Positions 5,598 to 21,421 of a DNA stretch of 29,248 bases are shown in pieces. The number at the start of each line of letters is the position of its first letter. The stretch's first letter is position 1. The notes under the pieces were generated by a model that ran no database searches, was not told the DNA's origin, and saw only the letters and a list, made by a program, of their open reading frames with translations. The stretch is from a virus: the IMG/VR virus record IMGVR_UViG_3300049846_001563, positions 1 to 29,248 of that record; one strand, 5' to 3'. A program made the translations under genes and the position numbers.

Positions 5598-7565
5598 CTA
5601 GCGCCCCTTGCTGCGAGGCTTCTCTCCCTCGATAGGGGCCTGCGTGGTGCGTGAGCCTGGGGTGGCCGAAAGGATCGGGCCCTTCGGAGTAGTCTGCCTA
5701 ACGCTCTGTTCCGGCCGGGTGGGATAGTCCGCGATGCGCGGATCGAGCGGTCGCGTGCCTGCGGGAGGCAAAGACTCGTTGGGGGCAACAGACTGCCCCG
5801 TGAGCTCGCTCACTCGCGAGAGTCTCCCTGTTGCCGGGTCACGGTTGTAGCCTTTCTGTACCAGTTCCGCGTTGAAGGTCCGCATCATGGCCTTCTGAGA
5901 CTCGTCGTTGCGGTCGATGTTGTTCCGGATGACGCGATCCGCCGCTCGACGCTCAGCGCCGACCAGGTAGTCCGTGCCCGGAACGCCTGCGGCCTTGGCC
6001 GCACCCGCGGCCCTTGCTCCCTGCCGGCCAAGGACAGGCAGATCGACCCCATCGAAGCCAGCCGTGTACATGGTGCCGTACTTCTCCTCGCGCTCGACGT
6101 CTGCCTTGGTGTTGACGCCCTGGCCAGCCGCTACGGAGTAGGCATCCATCCTCTCTTTCTGAAGCGTACGGAGCTCGCCCACACCTGCGAGCCACTCCTC
6201 CTTTTCCTTCGTCCCAGCGAGAGGGTTGAGGTTGTCGAGCCTTTGCCGGATTTGCAGTGCCCTCAAGTCCTTAGCTTGAAGCTCCTGGCGAAGACGCAGC
6301 TCCGCGAGCGCCGTACCTTGAAGCTTCTCGGTATCCAGCGCGTACGTCGTGTTGTCCGAGAGGGTGACCTTGTGGGGAACGTCGGACATGCCCGCGCCTC
6401 CGCCGCCATAAACCTGAGGTGGGCGGTACCTGTTCGCCATTTCGCGCGAGATCTCTCCCTGCTCCCGGCCAAAAAGACGCTCTTCGGTCTTGGTCCTCTC
6501 TTCGAGGATCTGGCCCTGGAGCCGCAGGTAGTTCGCGGGGTTCACATCCGCACGATGTTCGGCCGCGAGCTTTTCGAGCTGAGTCAGCGCGCTGTCGTAG
6601 TAGGCCAGCTTGGTCGCGTCGACCGCCTTGGCCTTGTTGTTCAGGCGCTCGTTGTGGAGGTTGAGCAGGTTGGTCTGGCGACCCGCGAGCTTGCCGGCCT
6701 CGTCGCGAGCCTTGAGCTTCGAGCCGATGTCCTGGTCGATGAGTGAGTTGATGAAGCCGCCCGCGCTCGCGATCGGGATCCCTGCTACGAGACCGCCTCC
6801 GCCAGCAGCTGCCGCTGTTCCGATCGCCATGAGCGCGAAGCTCAGGAACCGACCGAAGGCCACCTCGCTGTTCCAGATGTCTTCCGGCTTGCCCGCGGCC
6901 TGCTTGTTGAGCGACTCGATCTCGCGAAGCTTGGCCTGGGCAATCGAGTCACGTTCCTCGGCGATCTGGCGCTGTTGAAGAGCCGCATCCTCGGCAGCCT
7001 GGATCTTGATGCCCGCGATCTTCTTCTCCTGGTCGTACAGGTGCTGATCCGCGTGGTACTGGACGCCGGCCGCCGCCGAGCCAAGCCGCGCCACGTCGTC
7101 GTAGCCCTGACGGATCTCCTGGGGGACCGGCTGCTTGATCTTCTCTTCGGTCTTCTCCGAGAACGGCATCATGCCGCCCGGAATCACGCCACCGCCGCCG
7201 TAACCCAAGGGAGCCGGGCCGGCAGGCGCCCGACGGTCGGGAGGCTTGGGAGGCTCTGGCGGGGTCGGGTCCGTGGCTTCGGCAATGGCCGCTCTCCTGG
7301 CGAGCAGTGCCGGGTTTTCCTCGTCTTCGCTGAAGGTAGGAACCACCGCGGGTGGCGCAGGAGGGGGAGGGGGCGGCTCAGGAGGCACGAGCGTTCCCTC
7401 CGGCGTTCCGGACAGGAACCTCGACCTCGGCCCCTTCGTCGCGGCGGTGCGAGACTCAGCGGCGGCCAAGGCAGCATCGTAGGCCGCTGCGGCGTCAGCC
7501 TCCCGGCGAAGTTGCTCCTCGTCAGAAAGAATCGGGCTGGGCGTATAAGATTTCGGTCCGCTCAT
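5598..7565 (-). CDS. internal virion-type protein with Pro-rich N-terminus and membrane-like segment
   Basis: 655 residues. The ATG at 7565 overlaps the previous stop as ATGA, which decides the start. Residues ~55-115 are very Pro-rich (a run of prolines near 64-69). Residues ~175-225 are coiled coil. Residues ~237-278 are hydrophobic and Gly/Ala-rich (SFALMAIGTAAAAGGGGLVAGIPIASAGGF), long enough for one or two membrane passes. More coiled coil follows to ~350. The C-terminal third is mixed and ends in a basic tail. Together with the flanking genes this suggests an ejected virion protein that inserts in or spans the host membrane. No enzymatic motif was recognised. Confidence 0.72.
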   Translation of the reverse strand: MSGPKSYTPSPILSDEEQLRREADAAAAYDAALAAAESRTAATKGPRSRFLSGTPEGTLVPPEPPPPPPAPPAVVPTFSEDEENPALLARRAAIAEATDPTPPEPPKPPDRRAPAGPAPLGYGGGGVIPGGMMPFSEKTEEKIKQPVPQEIRQGYDDVARLGSAAAGVQYHADQHLYDQEKKIAGIKIQAAEDAALQQRQIAEERDSIAQAKLREIESLNKQAAGKPEDIWNSEVAFGRFLSFALMAIGTAAAAGGGGLVAGIPIASAGGFINSLIDQDIGSKLKARDEAGKLAGRQTNLLNLHNERLNNKAKAVDATKLAYYDSALTQLEKLAAEHRADVNPANYLRLQGQILEERTKTEERLFGREQGEISREMANRYRPPQVYGGGGAGMSDVPHKVTLSDNTTYALDTEKLQGTALAELRLRQELQAKDLRALQIRQRLDNLNPLAGTKEKEEWLAGVGELRTLQKERMDAYSVAAGQGVNTKADVEREEKYGTMYTAGFDGVDLPVLGRQGARAAGAAKAAGVPGTDYLVGAERRAADRVIRNNIDRNDESQKAMMRTFNAELVQKGYNRDPATGRLSRVSELTGQSVAPNESLPPAGTRPLDPRIADYPTRPEQSVRQTTPKGPILSATPGSRTTQAPIEGEKPRSKGR

Positions 7566-9877
7566 CCTGTCCTCTGGCGCTTGCGGTTCTTGAGGATGGC
7601 CCCGAGCTCGTCGACCTGGTCTTGGAGGCTGGCGACGCCGTCCGCCGTGACCGTGATCGCGTCCTGGAGAGCGACCTTCTTGAGGCCGGTCTCGTCGTTC
7701 CTGACCGCCGTGGCCGTGATGGGGTTCTCTTCCAGGGTCTGGGCCATGAAGCCATGGTGGACCTGATTGGGATCCTCGCCGAAGCCTTCCTTGTACGTGT
7801 ACGTCTCGCCGCGGAGCTTGCGGTTGGCGTCCTTGCGCATCTCCATCATGCCGGCGTGCTCGCCGCGAGTCGTCTTGGCATTCTGATCGGACGTGCCCCA
7901 CGGATGATCCTCGTCCGCCGTGTTCTTCGGGGGAGGGATCGGGATCTCGCGAAGCCGATCCTCGCGCATGTTGCCCTCGACTGGCGAGTAGGGAAGCGGA
8001 GTCGGGTCGTCTCTCTTGAACTCGGTCGGCTGCCTCAGCTTGAATCGCTCATTTTGCGGAGGGGGAGGGGTATCCGTCAGGCCGTACGCTGCTCCCGTCC
8101 TTACCCCCAGCTCGGCAGCTCCAGGGATCCCCGTAAATGCCGTCTTGGCTGCGCCGATCGCGATGTTCCTCTTGGCGTCGTCATGGTCCGCAGTAGCGTC
8201 GTCCACATACTTGCGCTGATTCGTCGGATCCATTCGCGGAACCGCGTCGCTCTTCTTGGCGTGCGACGTCGCCGCCGACTGCTTGGGAAGGTAGGACGGA
8301 AGATCCTTGGTCCTGCCCTGGCCGTAGCTCACGCCGTCGAGAAAGGCCTGCTGCTTGGCGGCCGGGTCCGAGGTCATGACTTCAAGATCCCTGTCGCTCA
8401 TGCGCTGCACGTCGGACCCAAAGATGATGTCGTTACCGTTGAAGCGGGGGTTCTCCTTGAGATGCTTGAAGTCAACCCATGTACCAGAGGGCTCCGTCAG
8501 CATCCTTCCCTGCTTATCGAACGTGTAGTCGTGCTTGACGGTCTTGCCTGGCGCGCCGTAGCGGAGCCAGTCGTCCGAGCCGGGAGCCTTGCCGGCGTCG
8601 CCCGTTTTGGCCGACCATCCGTCAGAGTAGCCGCCACCAAGGTCGTACGATGCGTTGCCCAGGTTGGGGTTCATGATCGAGCTCTTGGACCCCGCGCGAG
8701 ACGCGGCGTAGCCCTCGTCGGCTTTCTGGGGACCCGCTGCGTACGACTGGTGCCCAGGAATTCGCTCACGTCCAGCGATCATGTCCACGTAGTCCTGCGA
8801 GTAGCTCTTGGGCGAGCGGTCGCTGAAACGGATCTCGTTCACATCGCCGGGGCTCTCGCCGCCCTTCTGTTCGTCGCTGAAGCGAATGCGCTCGACGTCG
8901 TCCTCGCGAGGCCCGCTCTCGCCGCTGTCCTTGTCGTCGTAGCCGAAGAACTTTTCCCAGACGTTCCTTGCGCCCTCGCGCGTCTTGGCCATGCGGGCGA
9001 GTGCAGAGGGGGCCATGACATGCTTGACCTCGCGAGGGGACAAAAACGTCTTGGCTCTGGCGTCGGAGACTGCGCCCAGTGTGGTCGCGGCAAGCTTTGC
9101 GACGGTGGCAGCGTCGGCCATGTTGTCCCGCTTGTTCTGAGCCTCGCGCGCCTTCTGATCCAGGTAGCTCTGCTCGATGAGGCCCCCGAACCGAGTGTTA
9201 TTCGCCAGATCATTGGCCTGCGTACCGTAGGCCAGTCTCTCGTAGCCGATCTTGCGTCGCTGGTTCATGTCGCGGTACGCAAGCTCGTTGCTCGCGTCAG
9301 CCTCTGCCCGCTGCTGGGCCAGGCCTTGGCTGCCGTAGTCCTGTTTCCGGATCGCTCCGGCGCCCGAGTTGAAGGCCCCGAGGTCGGCGCCGATCTCGGA
9401 GGACCGCATCCCGGCATAGCCGCCAATGCCCTGATTCTGCATGGACTGCATACCGCGAAGCGCCCCGGCTCCTGCGGCGCCCTGGGCTGCCGGAGATCGT
9501 GCGCCACCCTGAGCGGCCATGGCCTGATCGATGGACTGCCCGGCTACCTGGTTGCCGAGAATATTGGCCTCGGACGGCGCGTTGCCCTGGGCCGCACCCT
9601 TCAGGAGACCGAGAGCCTCCGTCTGGGTTCCTCGCGCTTCTAGCGAACGAGCCTCGTCGGCCTGCGCCTTTCCGAAGTTGAGTTTTGGATTGGGCCGGGC
9701 TCCGAAGATCCCGTTACCGTCGTTCTCGTCCCCGAGAGCGCGATACCGATCCCTGGCTACCTGGGCGCCAGAGCGGTTGTCGGCATCCATCGCGCCGGAT
9801 CCCGTGGGGTCCGCGCCGTACCCTCCGTACTGAAACGGATCGTACTGCCCGTAGGGAGTAAAGCCTCGCCTTGCCAT
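7562..9877 (-). CDS. internal virion-type protein with C-terminal intramolecular chaperone (Peptidase_S74-like) domain
   Basis: 771 residues. About residues 90-260 are Ala/Gln/Gly-rich and helical, ending at SDARAK (271-276). The middle region is polar and low in hydrophobics. The last ~110 residues match the endosialidase-type chaperone: SDQNAK (663-668), then LRGETYTYKEG, HHGFMAQTLEENP, a helix containing LKKVALQDAI, and a terminal coiled coil VASLQDQVDELGAIL. In this family (tail spikes, and eukaryotic MYRF) a Ser and a Lys five residues later form the self-cleaving dyad, here S663 and K668. The location beside ejection proteins is unusual for this domain, which normally trimerises spikes. 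The N-terminal third resembles the upstream 349-residue protein. Confidence 0.8.
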   Translation of the reverse strand: MARRGFTPYGQYDPFQYGGYGADPTGSGAMDADNRSGAQVARDRYRALGDENDGNGIFGARPNPKLNFGKAQADEARSLEARGTQTEALGLLKGAAQGNAPSEANILGNQVAGQSIDQAMAAQGGARSPAAQGAAGAGALRGMQSMQNQGIGGYAGMRSSEIGADLGAFNSGAGAIRKQDYGSQGLAQQRAEADASNELAYRDMNQRRKIGYERLAYGTQANDLANNTRFGGLIEQSYLDQKAREAQNKRDNMADAATVAKLAATTLGAVSDARAKTFLSPREVKHVMAPSALARMAKTREGARNVWEKFFGYDDKDSGESGPREDDVERIRFSDEQKGGESPGDVNEIRFSDRSPKSYSQDYVDMIAGRERIPGHQSYAAGPQKADEGYAASRAGSKSSIMNPNLGNASYDLGGGYSDGWSAKTGDAGKAPGSDDWLRYGAPGKTVKHDYTFDKQGRMLTEPSGTWVDFKHLKENPRFNGNDIIFGSDVQRMSDRDLEVMTSDPAAKQQAFLDGVSYGQGRTKDLPSYLPKQSAATSHAKKSDAVPRMDPTNQRKYVDDATADHDDAKRNIAIGAAKTAFTGIPGAAELGVRTGAAYGLTDTPPPPQNERFKLRQPTEFKRDDPTPLPYSPVEGNMREDRLREIPIPPPKNTADEDHPWGTSDQNAKTTRGEHAGMMEMRKDANRKLRGETYTYKEGFGEDPNQVHHGFMAQTLEENPITATAVRNDETGLKKVALQDAITVTADGVASLQDQVDELGAILKNRKRQRTG

Positions 9878-9883
9878 GGTGAA

Positions 9884-10933
9884 TCAGTACCAGTCCGCGA
9901 TGTTCTTGGCTCGTCGATCCGAGAGCTTCTTGGGGTCTTCCTCTGGCGCCGGAGATTTCAGGGCTTGCGCCCCGGCCTTGGCTGCCCCGGTCCCGATGTC
10001 GCCCACCGCAGAAGCGACGCCCCGAGCGTCCTGACGGCCGGCCGTTCGGAGCTGATCTTCCTTCTGGGCCACTCCGAGCTTGCCGGCAAACCGCTCGATC
10101 TGGGCTGCTGCCTGCGCCTGATTCGTATCCGCGCCCATGCTTTCGTACTCCAGCTCGGCCTGATCGTTGAGCGCCCGCTGCCCACGGTCCATCTGGCCCT
10201 GGAAGATGCCCTGTTGCTGACTGAGCCCTTGGCCCATGAGGTCGCCCTGACGCTGAGCGAGACCGGCTCCCAGGAACTGCTGGCGGCCCATGGCCTGCTC
10301 GCGGGCGAGTACCCCAGCAAGCGACGCGTTGGCTCCCGCACGGAAGCCTGCCTCGCCCGCTTGCTGTCCGGCCAGCGCGCTCGCTGCCGAAAGCGGGCCG
10401 CCTCGCCGTGAGGCCGCCACCGAGCGCTGGGCGTTGACGCCCTGGTTGATCATCGACTGGCCAAGCTTCTGGGACTGGGAGTTGATACCCAGCGCCATGT
10501 CTCTGGACATGCCGATCCCGGCGCCCTGCTCGCCCCGCATCTCGCCAGCGCGTCCCGCCCAAGCGTCGGCAACCGAGTAGTCGGTCTGGGGTCCCGTGCG
10601 CGCGCGGGCGCCCTGCGCCATCTGTTGATACCGCTCGACGTCAGCCTTGGCCCCCGTCGCGGACTTGTCGATCTTCAGCTCGCCCGTGACGGGATCTCGG
10701 TAGGCACGGCCGCCGACGCCGCCCCACGAGCCCGGGTCGTAGATGTTCCCTGTCGTATACCCCTGCTCGTTGCCAGAATTGCCGGGGGTCCCGAGGAACT
10801 GGTTGCTGGCGTCCGCGCTCGACCAGGGGTTGCGAGCCTGTCGCTGCTCCTCGGGGGAGACATTGTCCGGGTTCTTGTCTCCAGGGTCGAAGTCCCAGGT
10901 GTCCGCGTAGCCGCCTGATTGCTGCCCAGCCAT
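9884..10933 (-). CDS. Ala/Gln/Gly-rich structural protein ending at an SDRRAK motif
   Basis: 349 residues from ATG 10933, which has AAAGG upstream; a longer frame would run into the nozzle gene. The body is helical and rich in Ala, Gln, Gly and Met (GQSMINQGVNAQRSVAAS, GLSQQQGIFQGQMDRGQ). It ends KKLSDRRAKNIADWY. The composition, repeat-like GQQ/AGQ texture and terminal S-D-x-R-A-K match residues ~90-276 of the next protein, so the two look like tandem paralogues. SDxRAK is the first motif of the S74-type chaperone domain, yet here the protein stops six residues later. It may be a naturally short form, or a remnant of a longer gene. An internal virion protein is inferred. Confidence 0.72.
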   Translation of the reverse strand: MAGQQSGGYADTWDFDPGDKNPDNVSPEEQRQARNPWSSADASNQFLGTPGNSGNEQGYTTGNIYDPGSWGGVGGRAYRDPVTGELKIDKSATGAKADVERYQQMAQGARARTGPQTDYSVADAWAGRAGEMRGEQGAGIGMSRDMALGINSQSQKLGQSMINQGVNAQRSVAASRRGGPLSAASALAGQQAGEAGFRAGANASLAGVLAREQAMGRQQFLGAGLAQRQGDLMGQGLSQQQGIFQGQMDRGQRALNDQAELEYESMGADTNQAQAAAQIERFAGKLGVAQKEDQLRTAGRQDARGVASAVGDIGTGAAKAGAQALKSPAPEEDPKKLSDRRAKNIADWY

Positions 10934-10934
10934 C

Positions 10935-13900
10935 TCAGCCTTTCTTTCTAGCAGACATCCCGTCACCCTTCAGGACGCCGAACTCGATCCCCATCGTCTC
11001 GAAAGACGGGCCTTTCCCGTCGCCCAGGGACCCCGGCCCCGTGGGCGCGCTGTCGGTGATCCGGAATCTAATGCTCATGCATTTTCTCCGGTTGCCGATC
11101 GCGATCTTGCACTCCTCCAGCGGGCCCACGTCGGTCACGGCGGACGTCTGATCGAAGGTCACCGATTGCTGGTACTCGTCCGAGCTGTCGAACGCGCACT
11201 CCACAGTGAGTTCGTGCTTCGAGTTGCTGGCGCCCTGGAGCTGGAAGTTGCGGACGGAGTGGAAGGCCAGCGGGCCGGCAGCGGAGACCCAGGCCGTCTC
11301 AAGGATGCCTGACGTGTACGTGCCGTCATCGAGGCTAGAAGTCGTGATCTCGCGATACAGCCGCCCAGCCGGAGTCACAAACACCCACGCTCCGCGCCAT
11401 AGGGTGGCGTGCGCAATCGCGCAGCCGCGAGTGGTCCCGTCGTAGTACCTGGAGGAAGACCATTGTTTCTCGACGAAGTTGTAGACGAGCACGACGCCCG
11501 AGGTCGAATCGCTCGTATTGCATGTGAACCTGACCTCGTTGAACGCAGGCACGAGAACTGCGCTCGTCACGTTCGGAAATTCGGCGAGCAGATCCTGGAC
11601 GGCCCTGCCGATCCAGACCACTTCCAGCCCGCGCGTGAGAAGCATGATCCCGCGAACAGCCTGGAACATGATGCCGTCAGGAGTCCCCACGATGGACTTG
11701 GCACTTGAACATCCAAGGTCCGTCTGCACCTTGATCGGCCCCTGAAAGTCGGAGCCCTGGCCGTTTGCTGCCGGGCCTGTGCCGAGCATGTAGCTGATGC
11801 CGTTCTCCGAGAAGAAAACAGCCTTGTCGTCCATGGAGAGGCCGCCGACCTGAGGTTCAAGGAACGCAATGCGGAAGTCGGGATGGAACCCTGGAGCGGT
11901 GCCAAGGTCGTCTTGGAACGCCTTGGAGTACCACCACGTGAGCTGGTCCCCGGCCAGGACCCAAAGCCGATCTGCGTGCTCGAACAGCGCGACGCTCCCT
12001 ACCGGCGCGTAGTCCTCCTTGACGCCTCCCGTGGTGTACAGCACGGGACGTACAGAAAGCGCGGTGGTCGCGCCGATGTTGGAGTCTGCCCTGGTGTCGA
12101 CAACCGAAACGCTGGCCCGCTCGCTGTCTACGGATGTGAAGTTGTACAGCGGGGGGTAACCGAGCTTCCTGACGATCGAATCGTTGACCAGGGACCTGTG
12201 GGGCAGAAACGCGGTAGGGGTTGCGTTGTCGCCAGCAAACGAAAGCCTGTAGTTCTGCTTTCTTGTGAAATTGAAGCCGGTAACGTCGAGCGTCACTTGA
12301 CCGTTGGGCCCCGTGACGGCGGCCGTGATCGCAGACATCGGCGGGCTTCGGTGGACGACATCGGAGGCCGACCGATACTCAAAGATTCCCGAATAGATGT
12401 AGTCACCGGTCGCCATGCCTCCACCCGCGGCTGCCGGCGTATAGAGGACGAACCACGGGCCGCGCGGAAACCCATAGTCGAAAACCCTGGCGCCGTCGTA
12501 CGCGGTCAGTGTTGCGCCCGCGATGTAGACCTCGCGCGAGGTCTGGCTGGCCTGCCAGTATCCGGAAGGAAAGAGACTCTCACTTGTCGCGACCGAGCAA
12601 AGCCTCACGCTCTGGAGCCAGTTCTCCCCGAGTCGTGCCGGAACCTCGGCCAGAAATGGCGTGTTGACGTAGGCTCGGCTCGCGTACTGCCCGGATCCCG
12701 GAAGCGGTGCCCACTTGGCCCAGAGTCCTCCAATGAGCAGGTCCGAGCATCCGACGTACCTCGGAGGAACGAAAGCGCTCGGGGCAGCGGGGGGCGTGAT
12801 GGTCGAAGTTTCCAGTTCGACCAGCATCGTGTTGTTGGGAAAAAAGCTCGACGTGTACGGAACGGAACGATCGCAGAGCATGCACCACGCTCGCCCCCCA
12901 AGGATGAAGGGACGTGAGAGTGGGATGCCCTGCCACTGTCCCCGTGTGCTCGTCGAGGTAACCGTGCCGGCAACATCCAGCACGTGGACCATGGTCCGAT
13001 CTCCGGCGTTGCCGGAGCCGGAGAAGTCGATGACATGACTCACGGCAATGGCCGTGGTGCTCGACAGGATCTCAATGCCGATCCACCACGTTTCTTCGGT
13101 CCCGCCGAACGTCATGATGTCCGTTGGGCCCGCCACCTCCGTCAGCGTGTTGTCGAAGACAGAGAACCTGACAGGCCTGGGGATCGCTACGCCCTGAACG
13201 TAGTGCAGGAAAATGTTGGTCCCGTCACTTGCGATCGAGCAGATGTCGCAGCCTGCGACCTCGGAGCTCGAACCTGTGGCCACGAAAGCCAGGGCCGTTG
13301 TGTACGTGTTGAGAGTGATGGTGTTGACCGGCCCGACGTAGGCCACAAGAAAGCCAGAACCGTGACTCGTAACGTCCCAGCCTGCTCCAGAGCAGCCGGG
13401 CGGGTGCGTGAGGTCGTTGAAGAGGGTCGAGCCGGCCGAAAGCGTAAGGGTCGTCAGATTCAGGGAGTAGCCGCGTACCTCGTAAGGGCCAGGTGACGCG
13501 ACCCTCCGGAAGAAGATTCCAGCCGTGGTGCCGTTCACGCATACGCGAATGCCGGTCGGTTCAGTAGGCGACTCCAGCAAAACCGGAGGCACAACGATGG
13601 CCCCGGTAGCGACGTCGACTACCTGATAAAAAACCTTCGACCCTACGCCCCACGGGTCTCCGCCAATCCATGCCTGGACGAGCAGACCCGCCGCTGAAAC
13701 CGCGCTGTCCGACGATTGGACGCCTACGGCCGAATTCAACAGCGTTGACCATGTCAGGGCCGCGTCTGGAAGACCGTCAATCGTTCGCCAGGTGCCCGAG
13801 TAGTACGAGTACAGCGTCGGGCTGGCCGTGTTTCCAATGAGGCACAATTCATCATCTCTCGTGACGAGCCTGAGAGCTGTTGTCCCGGTGGCGAGAAGCT

Positions 13901-14051
13901 CAGTCCCCGCACGCTTCTCCAGCTTGGAGCCCTTGCCCCAACGGTAATTTTCGCACTTCGTCAGGACCCCGAACGGAACCGCGTGCGGGCTGTCGCCTTC
14001 GGCGAGCCCGAACTTGAACGGAGTTTGCTGAAGCTGGAAGTCGAGAGCCAT
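10935..14051 (-). CDS. tail nozzle / tail tubular protein B-like
   Basis: 1038 residues. The ATG at 14051 overlaps the upstream TGA by one base (TGATG). The N-terminus is characteristic: PFKFGLAEGDSPHAVPFG..TKCENYRWGKGSKLEKRAGTELLA. It matches the opening strands of podovirus nozzle proteins (T7 gp12 and P22 gp10 type). The long beta-rich body contains propeller-like blades, for example VALFEHADRLWVLAGDQLTWW, LSMDDKAVFFSENGISYML and SIVGTPDGIMFQAVRGIMLLTRG. Its C-terminal part adds further beta structure. In the virion it would form the distal channel below the adaptor and interact with the fibres. The length is above that of T7 gp12 (~800), suggesting inserted domains. Confidence 0.82.
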   Translation of the reverse strand: MALDFQLQQTPFKFGLAEGDSPHAVPFGVLTKCENYRWGKGSKLEKRAGTELLATGTTALRLVTRDDELCLIGNTASPTLYSYYSGTWRTIDGLPDAALTWSTLLNSAVGVQSSDSAVSAAGLLVQAWIGGDPWGVGSKVFYQVVDVATGAIVVPPVLLESPTEPTGIRVCVNGTTAGIFFRRVASPGPYEVRGYSLNLTTLTLSAGSTLFNDLTHPPGCSGAGWDVTSHGSGFLVAYVGPVNTITLNTYTTALAFVATGSSSEVAGCDICSIASDGTNIFLHYVQGVAIPRPVRFSVFDNTLTEVAGPTDIMTFGGTEETWWIGIEILSSTTAIAVSHVIDFSGSGNAGDRTMVHVLDVAGTVTSTSTRGQWQGIPLSRPFILGGRAWCMLCDRSVPYTSSFFPNNTMLVELETSTITPPAAPSAFVPPRYVGCSDLLIGGLWAKWAPLPGSGQYASRAYVNTPFLAEVPARLGENWLQSVRLCSVATSESLFPSGYWQASQTSREVYIAGATLTAYDGARVFDYGFPRGPWFVLYTPAAAGGGMATGDYIYSGIFEYRSASDVVHRSPPMSAITAAVTGPNGQVTLDVTGFNFTRKQNYRLSFAGDNATPTAFLPHRSLVNDSIVRKLGYPPLYNFTSVDSERASVSVVDTRADSNIGATTALSVRPVLYTTGGVKEDYAPVGSVALFEHADRLWVLAGDQLTWWYSKAFQDDLGTAPGFHPDFRIAFLEPQVGGLSMDDKAVFFSENGISYMLGTGPAANGQGSDFQGPIKVQTDLGCSSAKSIVGTPDGIMFQAVRGIMLLTRGLEVVWIGRAVQDLLAEFPNVTSAVLVPAFNEVRFTCNTSDSTSGVVLVYNFVEKQWSSSRYYDGTTRGCAIAHATLWRGAWVFVTPAGRLYREITTSSLDDGTYTSGILETAWVSAAGPLAFHSVRNFQLQGASNSKHELTVECAFDSSDEYQQSVTFDQTSAVTDVGPLEECKIAIGNRRKCMSIRFRITDSAPTGPGSLGDGKGPSFETMGIEFGVLKGDGMSARKKG

Positions 14052-14602
14052 CAGACCTCGGTGTACCTGTAGAAGATCGCGAGCGCGCCCTTGAGGATCG
14101 TGGTGGTGTCGCCTGCCGTGGTCGAGCACGCCTTGAGCCCAAGGATGCCGTCGGCCTCCACCCGGACACGTACGTTGATCCAGTCGTCACGGAACCCGCC
14201 GTTGACCGTGTGGACCGCGCTCGTGAGCGTGTTGATCGCGTTGAGCTGGACGTAGGCCAGGGTCGTGATGGCCCCGAGGGACGAGTGGAGGATCCCCTGG
14301 AGCGTCGAGCCCGTAGGGGCGGCAATCATGTAGCTCATGCCGTTGACGCTGCCAGACACGCCTGCGCGCCCGTAGTACTGCATGACCCAGAGGTCGCCCC
14401 GCTTGACCTGAATGGCGAGCTTGGTGCCCGCAGCGGAGTTGCGCGTGGTCGTGAACGTGTCCTTGAGCACGATCGCGGCAGGCAGGTAGAGGAGCTGGTC
14501 CTCGACGGTCGAAAGCTTCGCCGCCGCCTGCTGTCCGGTCCGCTGGACCCTGTCGACTGCCGCGTTTCCCGTGTGTTCGCGCCGGAAAGGGATCCGGCTC
14601 AT
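14051..14602 (-). CDS. beta-rich structural protein between adaptor and nozzle
   Basis: 183 residues from the ATG at 14602 that overlaps the adaptor stop as ATGA; a GTG two codons earlier is possible. A short helical N-terminus (AAAKLSTVEDQLLYLPAA) is followed by beta strands: GTKLAIQVKRGDLWVMQYYGRAG, GMSYMIAAPTGST, DDWINVRVRVEADGILGLKA and KGALAIFYRYTEV. The end resembles the closing strands of TNF/C1q-like trimeric heads. By position it could be a collar, head-fibre or fibre-adaptor protein. No specific family was recognised. Confidence 0.65.
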   Translation of the reverse strand: MSRIPFRREHTGNAAVDRVQRTGQQAAAKLSTVEDQLLYLPAAIVLKDTFTTTRNSAAGTKLAIQVKRGDLWVMQYYGRAGVSGSVNGMSYMIAAPTGSTLQGILHSSLGAITTLAYVQLNAINTLTSAVHTVNGGFRDDWINVRVRVEADGILGLKACSTTAGDTTTILKGALAIFYRYTEV

Positions 14603-15288
14603 GTCCACCAGGGCCCGAACGAGAACTCGTCGGACAGGGGCACGATCTCGCTCACGCGCTCCGGATGGCTCGCGTCACGCTTGGCTGCCAGGGCGTCGAT
14701 GAGCCGAAGGATCTTGTCCTTGCGCATCTCCCAGAAGCTCGGGTCCGCCTCTTCCTTGGCAAGGCAGGACGCGGTCGCGCCGTAGATGGCCGCGATCTCG
14801 TAGCCGTTGTACCCGTCGACCTCGTGCCTCGGGGTCTGGTTCAGGCGGTAACGCGGCTCGCTGGGCGCGTAGAACAGCGTGGCCGTGAAGCTCTGCGTGA
14901 CAGGGAGGAACTCGATCTGGGCTTCCTGGATCCGGTACATGGGCGAGCCCGCGGGGACCAGGACCTGCGAGTTGACCAGGCTCGCGCGCTCGGCCTCCAT
15001 GAACGGGTCGAGCCTGCGCTGGATGCCGCCCAGGCTTGCCTCGCAGGAGAGCAGCTCCCAGAAGTCGGCCGGCAGGTCGTAGGTGCTGGTGGCGCTCGTG
15101 ACCGAGATGGTCCGAGTCCGCCGCTGATGGGGCTGCCCCTCGTTCAGGCGAAGATGCGAGCGGAGCTCGGCCAGTTCCTGGTTGAGGTACTCCAGGATCT
15201 CCTGGTTGGTGACGAACTCGGAGTTCTCCATGTTCGCTCGCATGCGAACGTCGAGAACCATGTCATCGATCGTCCGCGTGCGAGCCAT
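14599..15288 (-). CDS. head-to-tail adaptor protein
   Basis: 229 residues with GAGGAG 6 bases before the ATG. The N-terminal helical part (IDDMVLDVRMRANMENSEFVTNQEILEYLNQELAELRSHL) is typical of podovirus adaptors that dock under the portal. It is followed by strand-rich STYDLPADFWELLSCE and a C-terminal helical part with GYEIAAIYGATASCLAKEEADPSFWEMRKDKILRLIDALAAKRD. Length and motif order fit the SU10-type or T7 gp11-type adaptor family. It sits in the expected place between capsid and nozzle genes. Assignment is by pattern, not by alignment. Confidence 0.75.
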   Translation of the reverse strand: MARTRTIDDMVLDVRMRANMENSEFVTNQEILEYLNQELAELRSHLRLNEGQPHQRRTRTISVTSATSTYDLPADFWELLSCEASLGGIQRRLDPFMEAERASLVNSQVLVPAGSPMYRIQEAQIEFLPVTQSFTATLFYAPSEPRYRLNQTPRHEVDGYNGYEIAAIYGATASCLAKEEADPSFWEMRKDKILRLIDALAAKRDASHPERVSEIVPLSDEFSFGPWWT

Positions 15289-15291
15289 GGC

Positions 15292-15540
15292 TTACTCCTC
15301 TTCGTGGCCGCAGGCCTGGATGACTCTCTTGAGAGCCGCCTTGGCCTGGGCAGTCTTTTCCTTGGGCACTCCGAGGATGGTCAAGAGCCCGCTCGCGGCA
15401 GCATCGAACGACGCATCCGCTGCGGGCATCTCTTCCTCCTCGTCGCCCATGTCCGGCTCAGAAGCCTGCGGCTCCCTCGGCTTGGAGCCGATGAGAAGAG
15501 CCGCGAGCTCGCCGTGCTTGGCGCGAGGCACCGCGCCCAC
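15292..15540 (-). CDS. small acidic protein of the head module
   Basis: 82 residues starting with GTG immediately after the TAG of the upstream gene; an internal GTG three codons later is an alternative. A basic start (PRAKHGELAALLIGSKPRE) is followed by an acidic stretch (DMGDEEEEM) and an amphipathic C-terminal helix (TAQAKAALKRVIQACGHEEE). It may be an assembly or head-completion factor. The function is not recognised. Confidence 0.6.
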   Translation of the reverse strand: MGAVPRAKHGELAALLIGSKPREPQASEPDMGDEEEEMPAADASFDAAASGLLTILGVPKEKTAQAKAALKRVIQACGHEEE

Positions 15541-16008
15541 CTAGGCCCCGACGCCAACGTCCTTCAGGACGAAGTCGACGCACACCGTGCGGCCTGAGGT
15601 CTCCTCGGCGGCGCCCGTGTTCTCGTTGTGCGTCGTCACCAGGACCGTCACGGCCGTTTCGTGGCCAGACCCCTGATTCGCCGGTTTTGTGCAGCATGCG
15701 CGCTTGCCGTCGTTGGGGCCCGCTTCCGGTCCCCACATGGCCGCGTCAGCCCACCAGACCGAGCGCCACCCGTCCGAGAACGTGAGGAGGAACTCCCCAG
15801 CATTTCCCGTCTTGGTGATGCTCGCAACGAAAGCCGGCCCGGTGTTGGACACCGAGCTGGCCCCGTCCGTACCCTTGAGCCCGCCCGCACCCTCGATGAG
15901 GGTCACGTCCGGGTTCGTGCCGATGTTCGTGGTGACGAACTTGACCGAGCCGTAGACGAGCCCTGGAGAGGCGTAGCGAGCGTTGGAGAACCAGGATCGA
16001 CGCGACAT
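15541..16008 (-). CDS. probable head or decoration protein, beta-rich
   Basis: 155 residues. The ATG shares one base with the preceding TGA. It opens SRRSWFSNARYASPGLVYGSVKFV and continues with beta strands and the aromatic stretch FSDGWRSVWWADAAMWG, then HETAVTVLVTTHNENTGAAEE and VCVDFVLKDVGVGA. The strand pattern, with a terminal VDFVLKD-type strand, resembles small phage capsid or stopper proteins. It has a CC pair in RACCTKP, so metal or disulfide use is conceivable. The role is inferred from place in the head cluster. Confidence 0.6.
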   Translation of the reverse strand: MSRRSWFSNARYASPGLVYGSVKFVTTNIGTNPDVTLIEGAGGLKGTDGASSVSNTGPAFVASITKTGNAGEFLLTFSDGWRSVWWADAAMWGPEAGPNDGKRACCTKPANQGSGHETAVTVLVTTHNENTGAAEETSGRTVCVDFVLKDVGVGA

Positions 16009-16544
16009 CAGAGCCTCTGGACGTGAACGGCGATCTCGAAGTTGGGCATGACGACGCCCGTGCCGTTCTTCGCGATCGACCAGGTGACCGTGCCGCCCGC
16101 GACCAGGATCAGGTTCGCGCTCGTCAGGGTGAAGTCCTCGCCCACGAACGCCGTGAACGATCCTGCGCCCGAGTTGAGCGTTGTGATTGTTCCCAACGTC
16201 GTGAGGCTGCCGCCAGCCGAGTCACGCTTGGAGACCGTGACCGTGGCCGCGTTGGCCGCGTCACCCGTGATCGCCGAGTCGGGCGTCAAGGTGATGCGTC
16301 GCACGATGCCGAATTCGGTTCCGGCAGAGTAGCCGTCGAGGATCGGGATCTGGAACCCGAAGCTCTCGGCCGTGGTCGTGCTGGCCATTGCGTCCGCAAG
16401 GAGGACGCCCGTGGAGAGCACCACCTTTCGGAACTTGTAGACCAGCGTGTTGGCCGCCTTGACCAGGTTGAAGGCGTTCGAGACGCCGCGTGCGTCGCCG
16501 AACCGGCCAGCCTCGATGTCCTGCTTGTACGTCTCGTCGCTCAC
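16008..16544 (-). CDS. beta-rich head or decoration protein next to the major capsid gene
   Basis: 178 residues. The GTG start overlaps the major-capsid stop as GTGA, with GGGAGG six bases before it. The first ~60 residues are mixed, then a beta-sandwich-like region follows: EFGIVRRITLTPDSAITGDAANAATVTVSKRD, SFTAFVGEDFTLTSANLILVAGGTVTWSIAKNGTGVVMPNFEIAVHV. The order TPDSAITGD..., T..V-V-KRD..., V-GG-VT-S..K.GTGV..P is one I associate with phage head decoration or head-fibre proteins. Translation appears coupled to the capsid gene, which suits a stoichiometric capsid partner. Confidence 0.68.
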   Translation of the reverse strand: MSDETYKQDIEAGRFGDARGVSNAFNLVKAANTLVYKFRKVVLSTGVLLADAMASTTTAESFGFQIPILDGYSAGTEFGIVRRITLTPDSAITGDAANAATVTVSKRDSAGGSLTTLGTITTLNSGAGSFTAFVGEDFTLTSANLILVAGGTVTWSIAKNGTGVVMPNFEIAVHVQRL

Positions 16545-17788
16545 GTGAGCCTCCCGCGGACCGAGCCCGCCACCTTCTTGGAGATCATCTGGTAGTACGC
16601 GATGATGCGGCCTTCGTAGGCGTCGGCCGAGTCCTCGCGAAGGAGCTTGGTCCCGTCGCGCGCGTCGATGAACGGGAATTGACCGGGGCCCTTGAGCTCC
16701 CACTTGTCGAGATCCACGCCCCAGGCGACGCCCTGCGTGTTGTTGTAGTCGGAGTACACCTCGACGGTGCCTGCGCCAGTCGCGACCTTCACGCCCTCGA
16801 AGCCGACCTTTCCGTCGACCTCCGTGTTGACCACGATACGCCTGCTGCCGAGCGACAGGATGAGCGCGAGGAAGTCCAGGTCATTCTCGAAGATGTGGGA
16901 GAGCTTGCCGCCGTTGCGGATGCTCACCTGGCACATCTTCTGGATCTGCTCCTCGGGGCCGAGCGTGCGGAGGTCTGCGCGGGAACCCGCGAGACGAACC
17001 GCGTCCTGCGAGCGGTCGAGACCAAAGAAGTTGTCGCCGCCGACCGGCGCCGTGGACGGCACCCAGGCCTCGAAGCCCTTGATCGCGATGCCGAAGTCGC
17101 CTTCCGTGAAGATGAAGTCCGACGCCGCCGCGGTCGGGATCATCGACGCGTCGTTGATGGCCGTGGCCGTGCCGCCCGGCGTGTTCGTCACCGTTACGGT
17201 GCCCGCGTCGCGGTCGACCGAAAGGACGTACATCTTGCCCGGCTTGACCGAGCCAGACGTACCGTCCGCCGTCGAGAGCACCAGGGGCTGGTTCTTCTCG
17301 AACTTGACGATGTCGTTGATGTTGTTGAGCGTGAAGCTCGTGCCGGAGAGCGTGACGCCTGCCGTGAAGCGGCCGATGGAGCCGCCGCCGTTGAGATACG
17401 GCTCGTAACCGAAGTTACGCTTCATCGCGTCCATCGCCGAGTCGAGCTCGAACTCAAAGGCCTCGACGAAGGCACCCTTGCTGTTCGACGTCTGACGCTG
17501 GAGGCGTCCGTCCACCGAGTACAGCGAGTAGTTGTCCGTGATCGAGATCTGGTACTCGACCACGTTGCTGGCCACCTTGTTGGCCTTGGCCTTGTTGAAG
17601 AGGTGCGATCGGCCCGCGGTGTGAGCGATGCGCACGGGCATGTGCCAGCTCTTGCCGTAGCCGTCGAAGCTCTTTTTCAGCATCGAGAACAGCGTGTTGT
17701 TCTCGTACATCGCCACCATGACGTCGTTCGGGTCAGGGTAGAGATGCTTGATGATCGCGTCGTGCGTCGTCGGAGTTGCCGCAGCCAT
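16541..17788 (-). CDS. major capsid protein (HK97-type fold)
   Basis: 415 residues with a strong GGAGG 7 bases before the ATG, fitting high expression. It has the expected place after portal and scaffold. The N-terminal segment HLYPDPNDVMVAMYENNTLFSMLKKSFDGYGKSWHMPV and the strand SNVVEYQISITDNYSLYSVDG fit the N-arm and early P-domain of HK97-type capsids. FVEAFEFELDSAMDAMKRNFG would be the long spine helix. Later strands (IVVNTEVDGKVGFEGVKV, GVDLDKWELKGPGQFPFID) suit the A and P domains. No N-terminal protease domain is visible, consistent with a separate scaffold gene. Confidence 0.85.
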   Translation of the reverse strand: MAAATPTTHDAIIKHLYPDPNDVMVAMYENNTLFSMLKKSFDGYGKSWHMPVRIAHTAGRSHLFNKAKANKVASNVVEYQISITDNYSLYSVDGRLQRQTSNSKGAFVEAFEFELDSAMDAMKRNFGYEPYLNGGGSIGRFTAGVTLSGTSFTLNNINDIVKFEKNQPLVLSTADGTSGSVKPGKMYVLSVDRDAGTVTVTNTPGGTATAINDASMIPTAAASDFIFTEGDFGIAIKGFEAWVPSTAPVGGDNFFGLDRSQDAVRLAGSRADLRTLGPEEQIQKMCQVSIRNGGKLSHIFENDLDFLALILSLGSRRIVVNTEVDGKVGFEGVKVATGAGTVEVYSDYNNTQGVAWGVDLDKWELKGPGQFPFIDARDGTKLLREDSADAYEGRIIAYYQMISKKVAGSVRGRLT

Positions 17789-17812
17789 TCCAGCCTCCAG
17801 GGCTGGCGCCTG

Positions 17813-18814
17813 TCATTCTCGCGACGGTTGGCCAGCCTCAAGCCCTGCCACGATGGCCTCCCTGGCTTGACGGCGCCTCTCTTCGAGCGAGAGCGCCTTC
17901 TTCTTGCCGGAGGACGTGGCAGCGGCGTGTTGGTTTGAGATCCCGTTCGGCCCGCTCTCGGTTTGTGCCGGAGCCTGTTGCGCTTGGCCGTTCGTTGGCT
18001 GGGAAGATCGCTTCGCGTGACCTTCGAGAATTCTTGTAGCACGAGGTTGGGCCTCAAGTTCAAGCGCTTCGCGAATTTCGTCGTCAGACGGGTTGCGTCC
18101 GTGCTCGATGTTGAACTTTCGGATGAGGGGAATCGTCCGACCCGTGCCGTCATCGACCGGACGATGGAGAAGCTCCTCGACCAGCGCCGGAACCTGGTGC
18201 GGCTCGTACACCAGCGTCAAATTGGGCGCGTTGTCGGGCGTGATCGAGCCCACGAACATCTTCATGGCCTCGAAACGGCGCCGATCCTGCTGTTCGGCCG
18301 CGATCCGCTCCTTTTCCTGCTCTTCTTGGGCGGTTTTCGCCGCGAGAGCCTCTTCGAGCTTGCGGATCCGCTTCTCTTCCTCCGATTCGGGCTTCGCGAA
18401 CCGCTTGGCGACCTCGACGGGGTCCTTTCCCTTCTTCAGGAGGTAGCCAACGGGGTCGCCGAGGGCCTCGTCGAGCTCGTCGAGCTTGGCCTGGATGGCT
18501 TTTTCCTTCTCGGAGAGCCCGGAGAGCTTCTCCTGCCACTGAGATTCGAGTCTTCGGACGTTCGCCTCACGCTTGGCGGCCGCCTCGAAGCGCTTGGACA
18601 GCTCCAGGTGCTTCTCGGGGGCCTCTTCGGGGGCCGTTTCGGCGACTGGAGCAGCCCCGGAGGGCTGGGGGGCCGGGGTTTCCGGTGCCTGGCTCGCCTC
18701 CGACGCTGCTTCAGTGGCCGGAGCGGCCTCTTCCGCTGCGGGGGCGTGCGCTTCCGGCGCCGCGCTCGCGCCGATCGTGGAGCGAGCCTGCGAAACGATG
18801 GGTCCATTGCTCAT
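17813..18814 (-). CDS. capsid scaffolding protein
   Basis: 333 residues, starting 3 bases after the portal stop. Residues ~15-68 are an Ala/Pro/Glu-rich disordered region. Residues ~70-125 are strongly helical and charged (LELSKRFEAAAKREANVRRLESQWQEKLSGLSEKEKAIQAKLDELDEAL), and ~140-200 are coiled coil. After RKFNIEHGRNPSDDEIREALE comes a Gln/Ser-rich linker and a basic C-terminal helix (KKKALSLEERRRQAREAIVAG), which is the usual capsid-binding end of scaffolds. Position between portal and major capsid makes this the standard assignment. No protease motif was seen. Confidence 0.82.
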   Translation of the reverse strand: MSNGPIVSQARSTIGASAAPEAHAPAAEEAAPATEAASEASQAPETPAPQPSGAAPVAETAPEEAPEKHLELSKRFEAAAKREANVRRLESQWQEKLSGLSEKEKAIQAKLDELDEALGDPVGYLLKKGKDPVEVAKRFAKPESEEEKRIRKLEEALAAKTAQEEQEKERIAAEQQDRRRFEAMKMFVGSITPDNAPNLTLVYEPHQVPALVEELLHRPVDDGTGRTIPLIRKFNIEHGRNPSDDEIREALELEAQPRATRILEGHAKRSSQPTNGQAQQAPAQTESGPNGISNQHAAATSSGKKKALSLEERRRQAREAIVAGLEAGQPSRE

Positions 18815-18817
18815 GGG

Positions 18818-20809
18818 TCAGGGTCCTTGCGGGGGTCCAGGTGGAACGCCGCCGTTGGGGAGGGGCATCATCTCGGGCGGCGGTGCGCCCGGGGGCATCA
18901 TGGGAGCCGGGCCGGCCATGGGAGGCCCAGGCGGCATGGGCGGAGGCTGTACGGCCTGCATCTCAGGCGGCATCGGCTCGCCCGGCATCAGGTTGGGGCC
19001 CTCGGGAACCCAAGGCTTGCCCGTCAGGAAGTGGTAGCAGGCCGCGATGTAGTTCCGCATGACGGCCAGGCGCTCCTGAGGAAGCCCGTCGTGCTTGGCC
19101 GCCTCATAGGCGTCCAGCATCATGCGGTACGCCATCTTGTGATCGCCGATCGCGTCGCGGACAACCTTCTCGCCCTTGCGCATGCGGGCGATGTCGCGGC
19201 GAACGTTCTTCTTGCCGGCCAGGCGCTCGGACGCAAAGGCCTCCGTGTCCGGCCACTCCAGCATCTCGAAGATGTCATCGGTCGTGACCTGCGTGTACTG
19301 CGCCAGCTCCAGCGCGTACTCGCGTCGTCCGGCCGGCGTGTCCGGCATCTTGCTCGTTGGGTAGACCTGGACCGCGATGGTGTCGAAGTCGACCTTGTCC
19401 CAGGTCACGCTCTCGATGGTGCGCCCCGAGAATCCGGACCGGGCGAGCACGGGGGCGGGCTTCTTCTTGAGCGAGCCCACCACGCGGGCGAGCTTGTACG
19501 CATCCTGGCTCGCGCTCTCCTCGGCCGAGCGGAGGAAGTTGGCGAATCGCTCGGTCTCGACGTTGAGGTACGTCCGGAGAGCGACCGCGGAATCCAGGCC
19601 CGCGGGCTTCTGGCTCTGCGCGGAGAGCTGAGAGATGCCGGTGACCTCGTAGAGCGTGCGCACGAGATACTGGAGATGCTGGAAGACCTCGCTCGACATG
19701 CTCTGCGGGGCGTAGACCTGCGGGGGAACCGCGCCCGTGTACTTGATGATCGTGGCGATGTCGTTGTTGAGGCTGGCCGAATTGACGTTGGAACTCGACT
19801 CGACCATCCAGTGAGGCTTGGCAAGCAGGTGCATGGCCCGCTGGATGTCGCGGATGATGCGATTGATCTCGCGCTGGATGCCGGCGACACGCTCCGCGAT
19901 GCCGATCCCCCACATGCCCATGACCTGGACTTCCGGGCGCTGGAAGTTGTAGGGCAGGATCTTGTCGTCGTAATCCAGGAACTTGAGCGTTTTGCCCCGG
20001 ATGCACACGATCTTCTTGCCTGGGCGCTGGCCCCTGGGCCTGGCGTAGCCCTCGTACACCAGGATCTGGTCAGAAGACTCGTCGCGGTCGAAGTCGTCGA
20101 TGTCCGTCTCGCTCGCGCGAGCGTCGCAAGCCTCTTCCAGGTCTTCGTTCCAAGTCTTCTCTTCGCGCCCGTTGCCAGGCTTACGCCAAAGCTCGAAGAC
20201 TTCCTGACGGTCGTAGTACTTCCGCTCGGCGATGTGGACCGGGGCGCCGTAGAGGCACTCGCGATCGTCGAAGATCATTTCCCAAGGGAACCGGCGCTCA
20301 ACAACGGCGTCCCCGTCGACCTCGTGGACCTTGGACACGCCCAGGCCGTAGATGGCCGTGTCGAGGATCTTGCCGGGGTAGATGTTCTGGTAGTAGCCGA
20401 GCTCATAAAACTTGCCGTCGATGTACTTGTCGGCGTTCTCGGCCTTCTCGCGAAGCTCGTAGGGCCCTTCCACCGTCGTAAACATCGGCCGCGGGCGGTT
20501 CTTGCAGGTCTTGGAGACCAGCGAATCGATCGCGTTCTGCGTGACGTTCAGGCTGATCTGGCCCTGGTTCATCATGCTTCGGGTGTACGAATTCACCCCG
20601 AAGCCCAGGAGCGGCAGGTTGGAGTACAGGCTCGCGTAGAGCAGGTTGCGCTTCCTGCGGTCGACGGCGCTTGGCCGCTCGCGGACGTGGTCGCACCACT
20701 TCAGGAACTGCGCGTGCGCGTCCTCGAAGTCGGCGTCTTCCCAGCGAAACCGCTCGGCCTCGGCCTTGGTATCCGAGACTCCGATCGTGCGACGCTTCGT
20801 CGTGGCCAT
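18818..20809 (-). CDS. portal protein
   Basis: 663 residues. The portal core is visible: DSLVSKTCKNRPRP (~95-108), AENADKYIDGKFYELGYY, DTAIYGLGVSKVH, the RFPWEMIFDDRE strand (~173-184), MWGIGIAERVAGIQREINRIIRDIQRA (~299-325), QHLQYLVRTLYEVTGISQLSAQ (~377-398) and AVALRTYLNVETERFANFLR. The last ~60 residues are an unusual Pro/Met/Gly tail (MPPGPP, MMPPGAPPPEMM), probably disordered. It opens the head operon. A 19-bp motif ends 9 bases before the ATG, and the ribosome site is weak. Confidence 0.88.
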   Translation of the reverse strand: MATTKRRTIGVSDTKAEAERFRWEDADFEDAHAQFLKWCDHVRERPSAVDRRKRNLLYASLYSNLPLLGFGVNSYTRSMMNQGQISLNVTQNAIDSLVSKTCKNRPRPMFTTVEGPYELREKAENADKYIDGKFYELGYYQNIYPGKILDTAIYGLGVSKVHEVDGDAVVERRFPWEMIFDDRECLYGAPVHIAERKYYDRQEVFELWRKPGNGREEKTWNEDLEEACDARASETDIDDFDRDESSDQILVYEGYARPRGQRPGKKIVCIRGKTLKFLDYDDKILPYNFQRPEVQVMGMWGIGIAERVAGIQREINRIIRDIQRAMHLLAKPHWMVESSSNVNSASLNNDIATIIKYTGAVPPQVYAPQSMSSEVFQHLQYLVRTLYEVTGISQLSAQSQKPAGLDSAVALRTYLNVETERFANFLRSAEESASQDAYKLARVVGSLKKKPAPVLARSGFSGRTIESVTWDKVDFDTIAVQVYPTSKMPDTPAGRREYALELAQYTQVTTDDIFEMLEWPDTEAFASERLAGKKNVRRDIARMRKGEKVVRDAIGDHKMAYRMMLDAYEAAKHDGLPQERLAVMRNYIAACYHFLTGKPWVPEGPNLMPGEPMPPEMQAVQPPPMPPGPPMAGPAPMMPPGAPPPEMMPLPNGGVPPGPPQGP

Positions 20810-21188: not shown

Positions 21189-21421
21189 GGCAGTTTCTCC
21201 AGTTCCTGGTCGCTCACGGGGCGGCCAAGCTGTTCCTCGTAGAAGCTGCGGCGCATGGCGAGCGGGTCGCGTTCGGCCTTCTCCAGCTTCACGGGCTCCG
21301 CGCCCAGGAGGATCTCGGTCCCCTGGTGAACCAGCTTGAGCACCCCGCGCCTGCGCATCAGGTCGATGAGATCGCTCAGTTCAGAAAGCTGGTCTCGTTC
21401 ATCTGTTCGAGGTCGGGCCAT
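21185..21421 (-). CDS. 78-residue protein of unknown function following the large terminase
   Basis: The ATG at 21421 has GAGGAT about 8 bases upstream and overlaps the 3' end of the terminase gene by 46 bases. It begins MARPRTDERDQLSELSDLIDLMRRRGVLKLVHQGTEILLG, suggesting two helices and a strand. It ends with MRRSFYEEQLGRPVSDQELEKLP, a helix pattern often seen where a short protein contacts nucleic acid or another subunit. It is coupled by ATGA to the next gene. The function is unknown. Confidence 0.62.
   Translation of the reverse strand: MARPRTDERDQLSELSDLIDLMRRRGVLKLVHQGTEILLGAEPVKLEKAERDPLAMRRSFYEEQLGRPVSDQELEKLP

Follow-up and report, generated by a model that had tools for sequence, protein, structure and literature searches.

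A Peptidase_S74 domain probably split by a long insert, with repeated start motifs, in an ejection-type protein of an SU10-like podophage

When a virus protein carries several copies of the Ser-Asp-x-x-x-Lys (SDxxxK) motif that starts a Peptidase_S74 domain, which copy holds the self-cleavage dyad, and what would such a domain do beside DNA ejection genes? The known role of S74 domains is to fold spikes that are trimers and to make a single cut within the same chain. Two adjacent ORFs, of 360 and 771 aa, raise this question in the window, i.e., the whole 29,248-nt stretch analysed here (IMG/VR record IMGVR_UViG_3300049846_001563, positions 1 to 29,248). Its genes on the minus strand follow a podophage-type order, and this order (terminase, portal, coat, adaptor, nozzle-type protein and then several large proteins) is the same as that found with T7- and P22-type ejection proteins:

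21376-22878, minus strand: terminase large subunit
18818-20809, minus strand: portal (Pfam SU10_portal)
16541-17788, minus strand: coat (PHROG major head protein)
14599-15288, minus strand: adaptor (Pfam SU10_adaptor)
10935-14129, minus strand: nozzle-type protein of 1064 aa (gene order and a weak PHROG 511 match, stronger in relatives)
9884-10966, minus strand: 360-aa ORF (349 aa from an ATG start at 10933)
7562-9877, minus strand: 771-aa ORF

Beyond the nozzle-type gene, the same strand carries in turn the 360-aa ORF and the 771-aa ORF, and then two genes whose products have about 655 aa and 984 aa. The gene downstream of the 771-aa ORF probably begins at an ATG at position 7565 that overlaps the stop of the 771-aa ORF (ATGA), which gives the product of about 655 aa; this start is probably to be preferred over that of a 767-aa ORF from 7901. 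The 360-, 771-, 767- and 984-aa ORFs gave no Pfam or PHROG match to the T7 gp14/15/16 or P22 gp7/16/20 families.

Direct searches with the 360-aa and 771-aa proteins found no relative in IMG/VR or INPHARED, and the window portal had no match in INPHARED. The relatives discussed here are IMG/VR contigs reached via three proteins (portal, coat, adaptor) and afterwards via the paralogue alignment (L025 and L009 designate one contig, as do L024 and L007); the genes at the equivalent place in these contigs are homologous to the window proteins. A consensus S74 query of a second subtype matched no phage record and four IMG/VR contigs.

A preliminary description of this DNA had placed the two proteins among ejection-type virion proteins, which is supported by the podophage gene order and by the compact relatives described below, which match PHROG 4287 ('DNA ejection protein') with both parts covered (P0007 at 2e-5, P0010 at 2e-6 and the L034 protein at 5e-10). 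The 771-aa and 360-aa proteins themselves matched no PHROG at E≤1, and their link to PHROG 4287, as read from these profile comparisons, runs only through the three compact proteins. As part of the explanation that we favour, the 771-aa protein is probably an ejection-type protein of an SU10-like podophage, and it would be located in the virion.

The same description had called an S74 domain beside ejection proteins unusual. We rejected the idea of an oddity, as this arrangement is established in other podophages. Indeed, S74-tailed proteins are found there in many of them, such as phiGT1_17, phiM5_27, PAE2_13 and those of several Rhizobium phages, and PHROG 4287 includes the domain. The record note of Sulfitobacter phage phiGT1_17 names Pfam S74, although S74 appears nowhere in the text of the phiGT1 paper. 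Sinorhizobium phage phiM5_27 matches PHROG 4287 at 6.5e-91, and its record gives detection in the phage particle proteome. In the literature searched, no paper dealt with S74 in ejection proteins. The 771-aa protein shares with PHROG 4287, phiM5_27 and phiGT1_17 the ejection-gene neighbourhood, a Gln/Ala-rich N-terminal part and a C-terminal S74. However, phiM5_27 and phiGT1_17 have one motif and a contiguous S74, whereas in the 771-aa protein the domain appears split by about 400 residues and four motifs are present. Hence, S74 next to ejection proteins is already known, and what is unusual here is the split form with its iterated motifs. In L019 (8173-11730, MW202675), a compact S74 (277-327) lies inside an 1185-aa protein with an SLT transglycosylase domain (601-694), where autocleavage would part a helical protein from an enzyme portion.

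All the strings quoted in the preliminary description are present where it had put them, i.e., SDQNAK (663-668), GETYTYKEG, HGFMAQTLEENP, SDARAK (271-276) and, near the end of the neighbouring protein, SDRRAK. It was right that the motif recurs non-randomly, and it undercounted the copies: the 771-aa protein has four SDxxxK, not two (at 271, 352, 503 and 663, vs 0.21 expected by shuffling, p=2e-4), and a fifth lies near the C-terminal end of the 360-aa neighbour. The assignment to S74, the intramolecular chaperone, was also upheld, by a match of Pfam PF13884 (Peptidase_S74) in the C-terminus at 23.5 bits, above the gathering cut-off of 22 bits. On the contrary, the C-terminal domain is not the full one that had been described: the match pairs residues 683-717 with profile positions 18-51 of 58, so that only the second part is covered and the Ser/Lys segment lies outside. 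In L007 and L009, the score is under the cut-off. The parts of the two proteins are as follows:

9884-10933, minus strand: 360-aa ORF from its ATG (349 aa), paralogue of the 771-aa N-terminal domain, no S74 core
9905-9922, minus strand: SDRRAK near the C-terminus of this paralogue; the protein ends SDRRAKNIADWY
9068-9877, minus strand: N-terminal helical Gln/Ala/Gly-rich domain, residues 1-270 (BLASTP and predicted helices)
9050-9067, minus strand: motif 1, SDARAK, residues 271-276 (invariant Ser, Asp and Lys, end-point of homology, predicted strand)
7838-9049, minus strand: insert, about residues 277-680 (absent from the compact homologue, pLDDT mostly below 50)
8807-8824, minus strand: extra motif SDRSPK, residues 352-357 (from the SDxxxK count)
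8354-8371, minus strand: extra motif SDPAAK, residues 503-508 (context like L007/L024 SDEKAKQEAYLQGV, aligned with SDEDAK of L025)
7874-7891, minus strand: extra motif SDQNAK, residues 663-668 (30 residues before YTYK, the dyad candidate of the preliminary description)
7565-7837, minus strand: second S74 part, residues 681-771 (helix, YTYK strand, GFMAQ strand, C-terminal helix)

Two kinds of homologues bear on where the domain starts. In the compact kind (L028, 384 aa; L034, L020, L022, L023, L049, L082 and L084), YxYK, or a sequence close to it, lies 25-31 residues past SDxxxK, with GxMAQ or a variant further on, and in those put through a Pfam scan the S74 profile matched from its position 1 at their SDxxxK; L048 is similar, without YxYK. 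In the split kind (the window, L025 with 851 aa, L024 with 671 aa, L010, L027 with its near twin L106, and L103), the two S74 parts are 113-481 residues apart. The N-terminal domain (1-270) is common to the compact S74 ejection-type proteins and the 360-aa paralogue. When the compact L028 protein P0007 was compared with the 771-aa protein by BLASTP, two significant pieces were obtained: its residues 23-282 align on 12-276 (35% over these residues, E=3e-28, ending at SDxRxK) and its residues 303-383 on 693-769. Residues 276 and 693 of the 771-aa protein thus correspond to 282 and 303 of P0007. Because 12-276 and 693-769 become nearly contiguous in this alignment, motif 1 is taken as the S74 start. 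SDARAK 271-276 would then most likely start the domain, providing the cleavage strand and the Ser-Lys dyad, with the rest following after an insert of about 400 residues.

In every homologue, the N-terminal domain is followed by motif 1, which is conserved throughout. Across 13 aligned proteins, there is no variation at S271, D272, K276, Y695, A712, Q713 and G731 and hardly any at Y693 and G709. The key conserved residues of MyRF include Ser, Asp, Lys and Gly (PMC3742443). This conservation bears on the possibility, which we hold to be real and yet somewhat unlikely, that the domain is structural only, its motif serving as a strand for trimer assembly, with no cutting and with full-length protein in virions. 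The splitting of the domain and the weakness of its Pfam match (23.5 bits, and under the cut-off in L007 and L009) would suit such a role, but a mere strand has no obvious need for a Ser, an Asp and a Lys that stay invariant in 13 diverged proteins.

The preliminary description had proposed instead that a complete S74 domain sits locally at the C-terminus, using Ser663-Lys668, that its cut removes the last 109 residues and that 271 is a second site. The spacing would be workable, since SDQNAK lies 30 residues ahead of YTYK, within the compact range of 25-31 and close to the 28 of MyRF, whereas 422 residues separate the conserved dyad 271/276 from YTYK. In L024, SDEKTK lies 17 residues ahead of YSYK and has S74-like flanks. 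L072 (11043-12719) has two S74 starts, set apart by some 60 residues of other sequence; Pfam S74 matches there partially at the first motif (profile 1-23) and nearly in full at the second (1-54, residues 452-505). The Pfam domain is thus completed by the motif that lies closer to the core, so the dyad pairing can shift. However, the motif at 663, closer as it is, is not conserved, and the orthologous dyad is 271/276. L025 reads SDDDSVQ at the place of SDQNAK, and no SDxxxK comes closer to the Tyr than 75 residues in L027, L103 or L010. The flanks of 663 are also unlike S74 starts, as judged by a weak test of resemblance in which 61% of sequence windows score as well as 663 and 8% as well as 271, and pLDDT is below 50 at 663. 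We therefore regard the local C-terminal domain as unlikely. The best explanation as a whole is probably a helical N-terminal domain with one S74 domain split by an insert: the first S74 strand, with the Ser271-Lys276 dyad, would follow directly on the N-terminal domain, and the remainder would stand at the C-terminus, past a flexible insert.

Structure models bear on this split arrangement. The model of the compact P0007 (mean pLDDT 65) shows, after SDxRxK, a strand, a short helix, two strands, a helix, two short strands and a long helix. In the PDB, it matches the MyRF ICA domain 7dc3 best, through three chains (probability 1.00, E 0.005-0.014), and endosialidase 3gw6 weakly; in BFVD, 'intramolecular chaperone auto-processing' proteins come first, and many of the viral matches carry this annotation. 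A phmmer search of P0006 against the PDB gave no match. The full-length model of the 771-aa protein (mean pLDDT 54) is confident over about 68-210 and 671-771. It has helices over 68-267 (pLDDT about 75-85 over 68-210), a strand at 276-278 (block pLDDT 77) in a model built on an alignment already pairing motif 1 with the motif of the compact proteins, and pLDDT below 50 over 513-670, SDQNAK included. At the C-terminus, strands at 691-695 and 706-709, a helix at 712-716, strands at 725-727 and 733-735 and a helix at 737-770 agree in order with the intramolecular-chaperone fold; the fold search of this model itself, by Foldseek against the PDB, returned no S74 structure and nothing meaningful.

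The order SDxxxK, YxY strand, GxMAQ strand and C-terminal helix is the same as in the Peptidase_S74 domains of endosialidase, MyRF and the T5 L-shaped fibre. Unlike in these, the upstream part of the 771-aa protein is predicted to be helical with no beta-helix stalk, and the first strand appears detached from the core. Where a tail spike carries S74 after a beta-helical stalk, residues 68-267 of the 771-aa protein are predicted to form long helices. The insert of about 400 residues is hydrophilic and, according to the model, likely to be largely disordered. The L026 protein (14094-15842), which has the N-terminal domain and no S74, carries a KKPNHPTFS-type module, which is also found in the insert of the L025 protein (15298-17853). 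Because this module is common to both, the insert may be able to hold exchangeable modules.

The extra SDxxxK motifs could be chance or low-complexity by-products of an insert that is hydrophilic, disorder-like and rich in D, K and S. The positions of the lysines argue against this. When motif 1 is not counted, 23 SD dipeptides occur in five diverged lineages (window, L025, L024, L027 and L103); 12 of the dipeptides have Lys at +5, vs 0-3 at any other offset from 2 to 20 (binomial p of about 1e-9 for +5, an optimistic value as the sequences are related). Permutation of the four closest proteins one by one, again without motif 1, gave p from 4e-4 to 2e-3, and p was 5e-5 for the whole L103 protein. 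At the DNA level, L024 contains within one gene a 49-nt direct repeat, 86% identical (13168-13216 and 13747-13795), which carries GDFAYSDEK.K, and in L103 a hydrophobic segment is repeated together with SDExTKxxLGSP. In view of the shuffling, the excess of Lys at +5 and the L024 repeat, we rejected a chance origin, which we consider very improbable. The two repeats suggest that some of the motifs, at the least, have multiplied by duplication; the further SDxxxK motifs would be genuine copies of the start motif or of a segment around it.

The fifth motif belongs to the 360-aa protein. Sequence comparisons through the L028 pair indicate that this protein and the N-terminal domain of the 771-aa protein are paralogues: P0009, the L028 paralogue, matches P0002 (the 360-aa protein) at 3e-37 and the compact P0007 at 1e-27 by BLASTP, and hhalign gave 99.5%. 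After the motif, the shorter protein ends within 6 residues in the window, 9 in L025 and 15 in L028 (P0009 ends SDERMKFRVRRLSLAQAVGGS), with no S74 core in any. A remnant of S74 escaping detection after the 360-aa ORF was dropped as a candidate, the gap between the two ORFs being only 6 bases. In the L025 homologue, which ends SDRRAKNIVDYLGRK, SDRRAKNI is identical at an overall identity of 31-35%, and this full retention, in a small number of sequences, speaks against a mere relic. The 360-aa neighbour is a paralogue that would have lost the S74 core and kept the motif.

In MyRF, the cut falls between P586 and S587, the dyad is S587-K592, a trimer is required and the cut strand comes from a neighbouring subunit (PMC8326128). 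By analogy, cleavage of the 771-aa protein is plausible, and its site would most likely be 270|271. The C-terminal core would trimerise, as in MyRF and endosialidase (PMC8326128), and the trimeric core would take in the Ser271 strand, which would be cut between 270 and 271. Once cut off, the helical N-terminal domain would be free to assemble into the virion.

A further possibility, to which we assign a low probability, is that a single S74 core works on several strands as substrates, the SDxxxK of the insert and the motif of the paralogue being docked or cut in cis and in trans, for co-assembly or multi-site processing. To our knowledge, the S74 domain is known only to cut itself once. If true, this would represent a multi-site or trans version of the domain. 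The split domain, the repeated start motifs and the motif-only paralogue together would provide a natural test of S74 action on separate or multiple strands, and the split S74 protein suggests that the assembly of ejection proteins in podophages includes a processing step.
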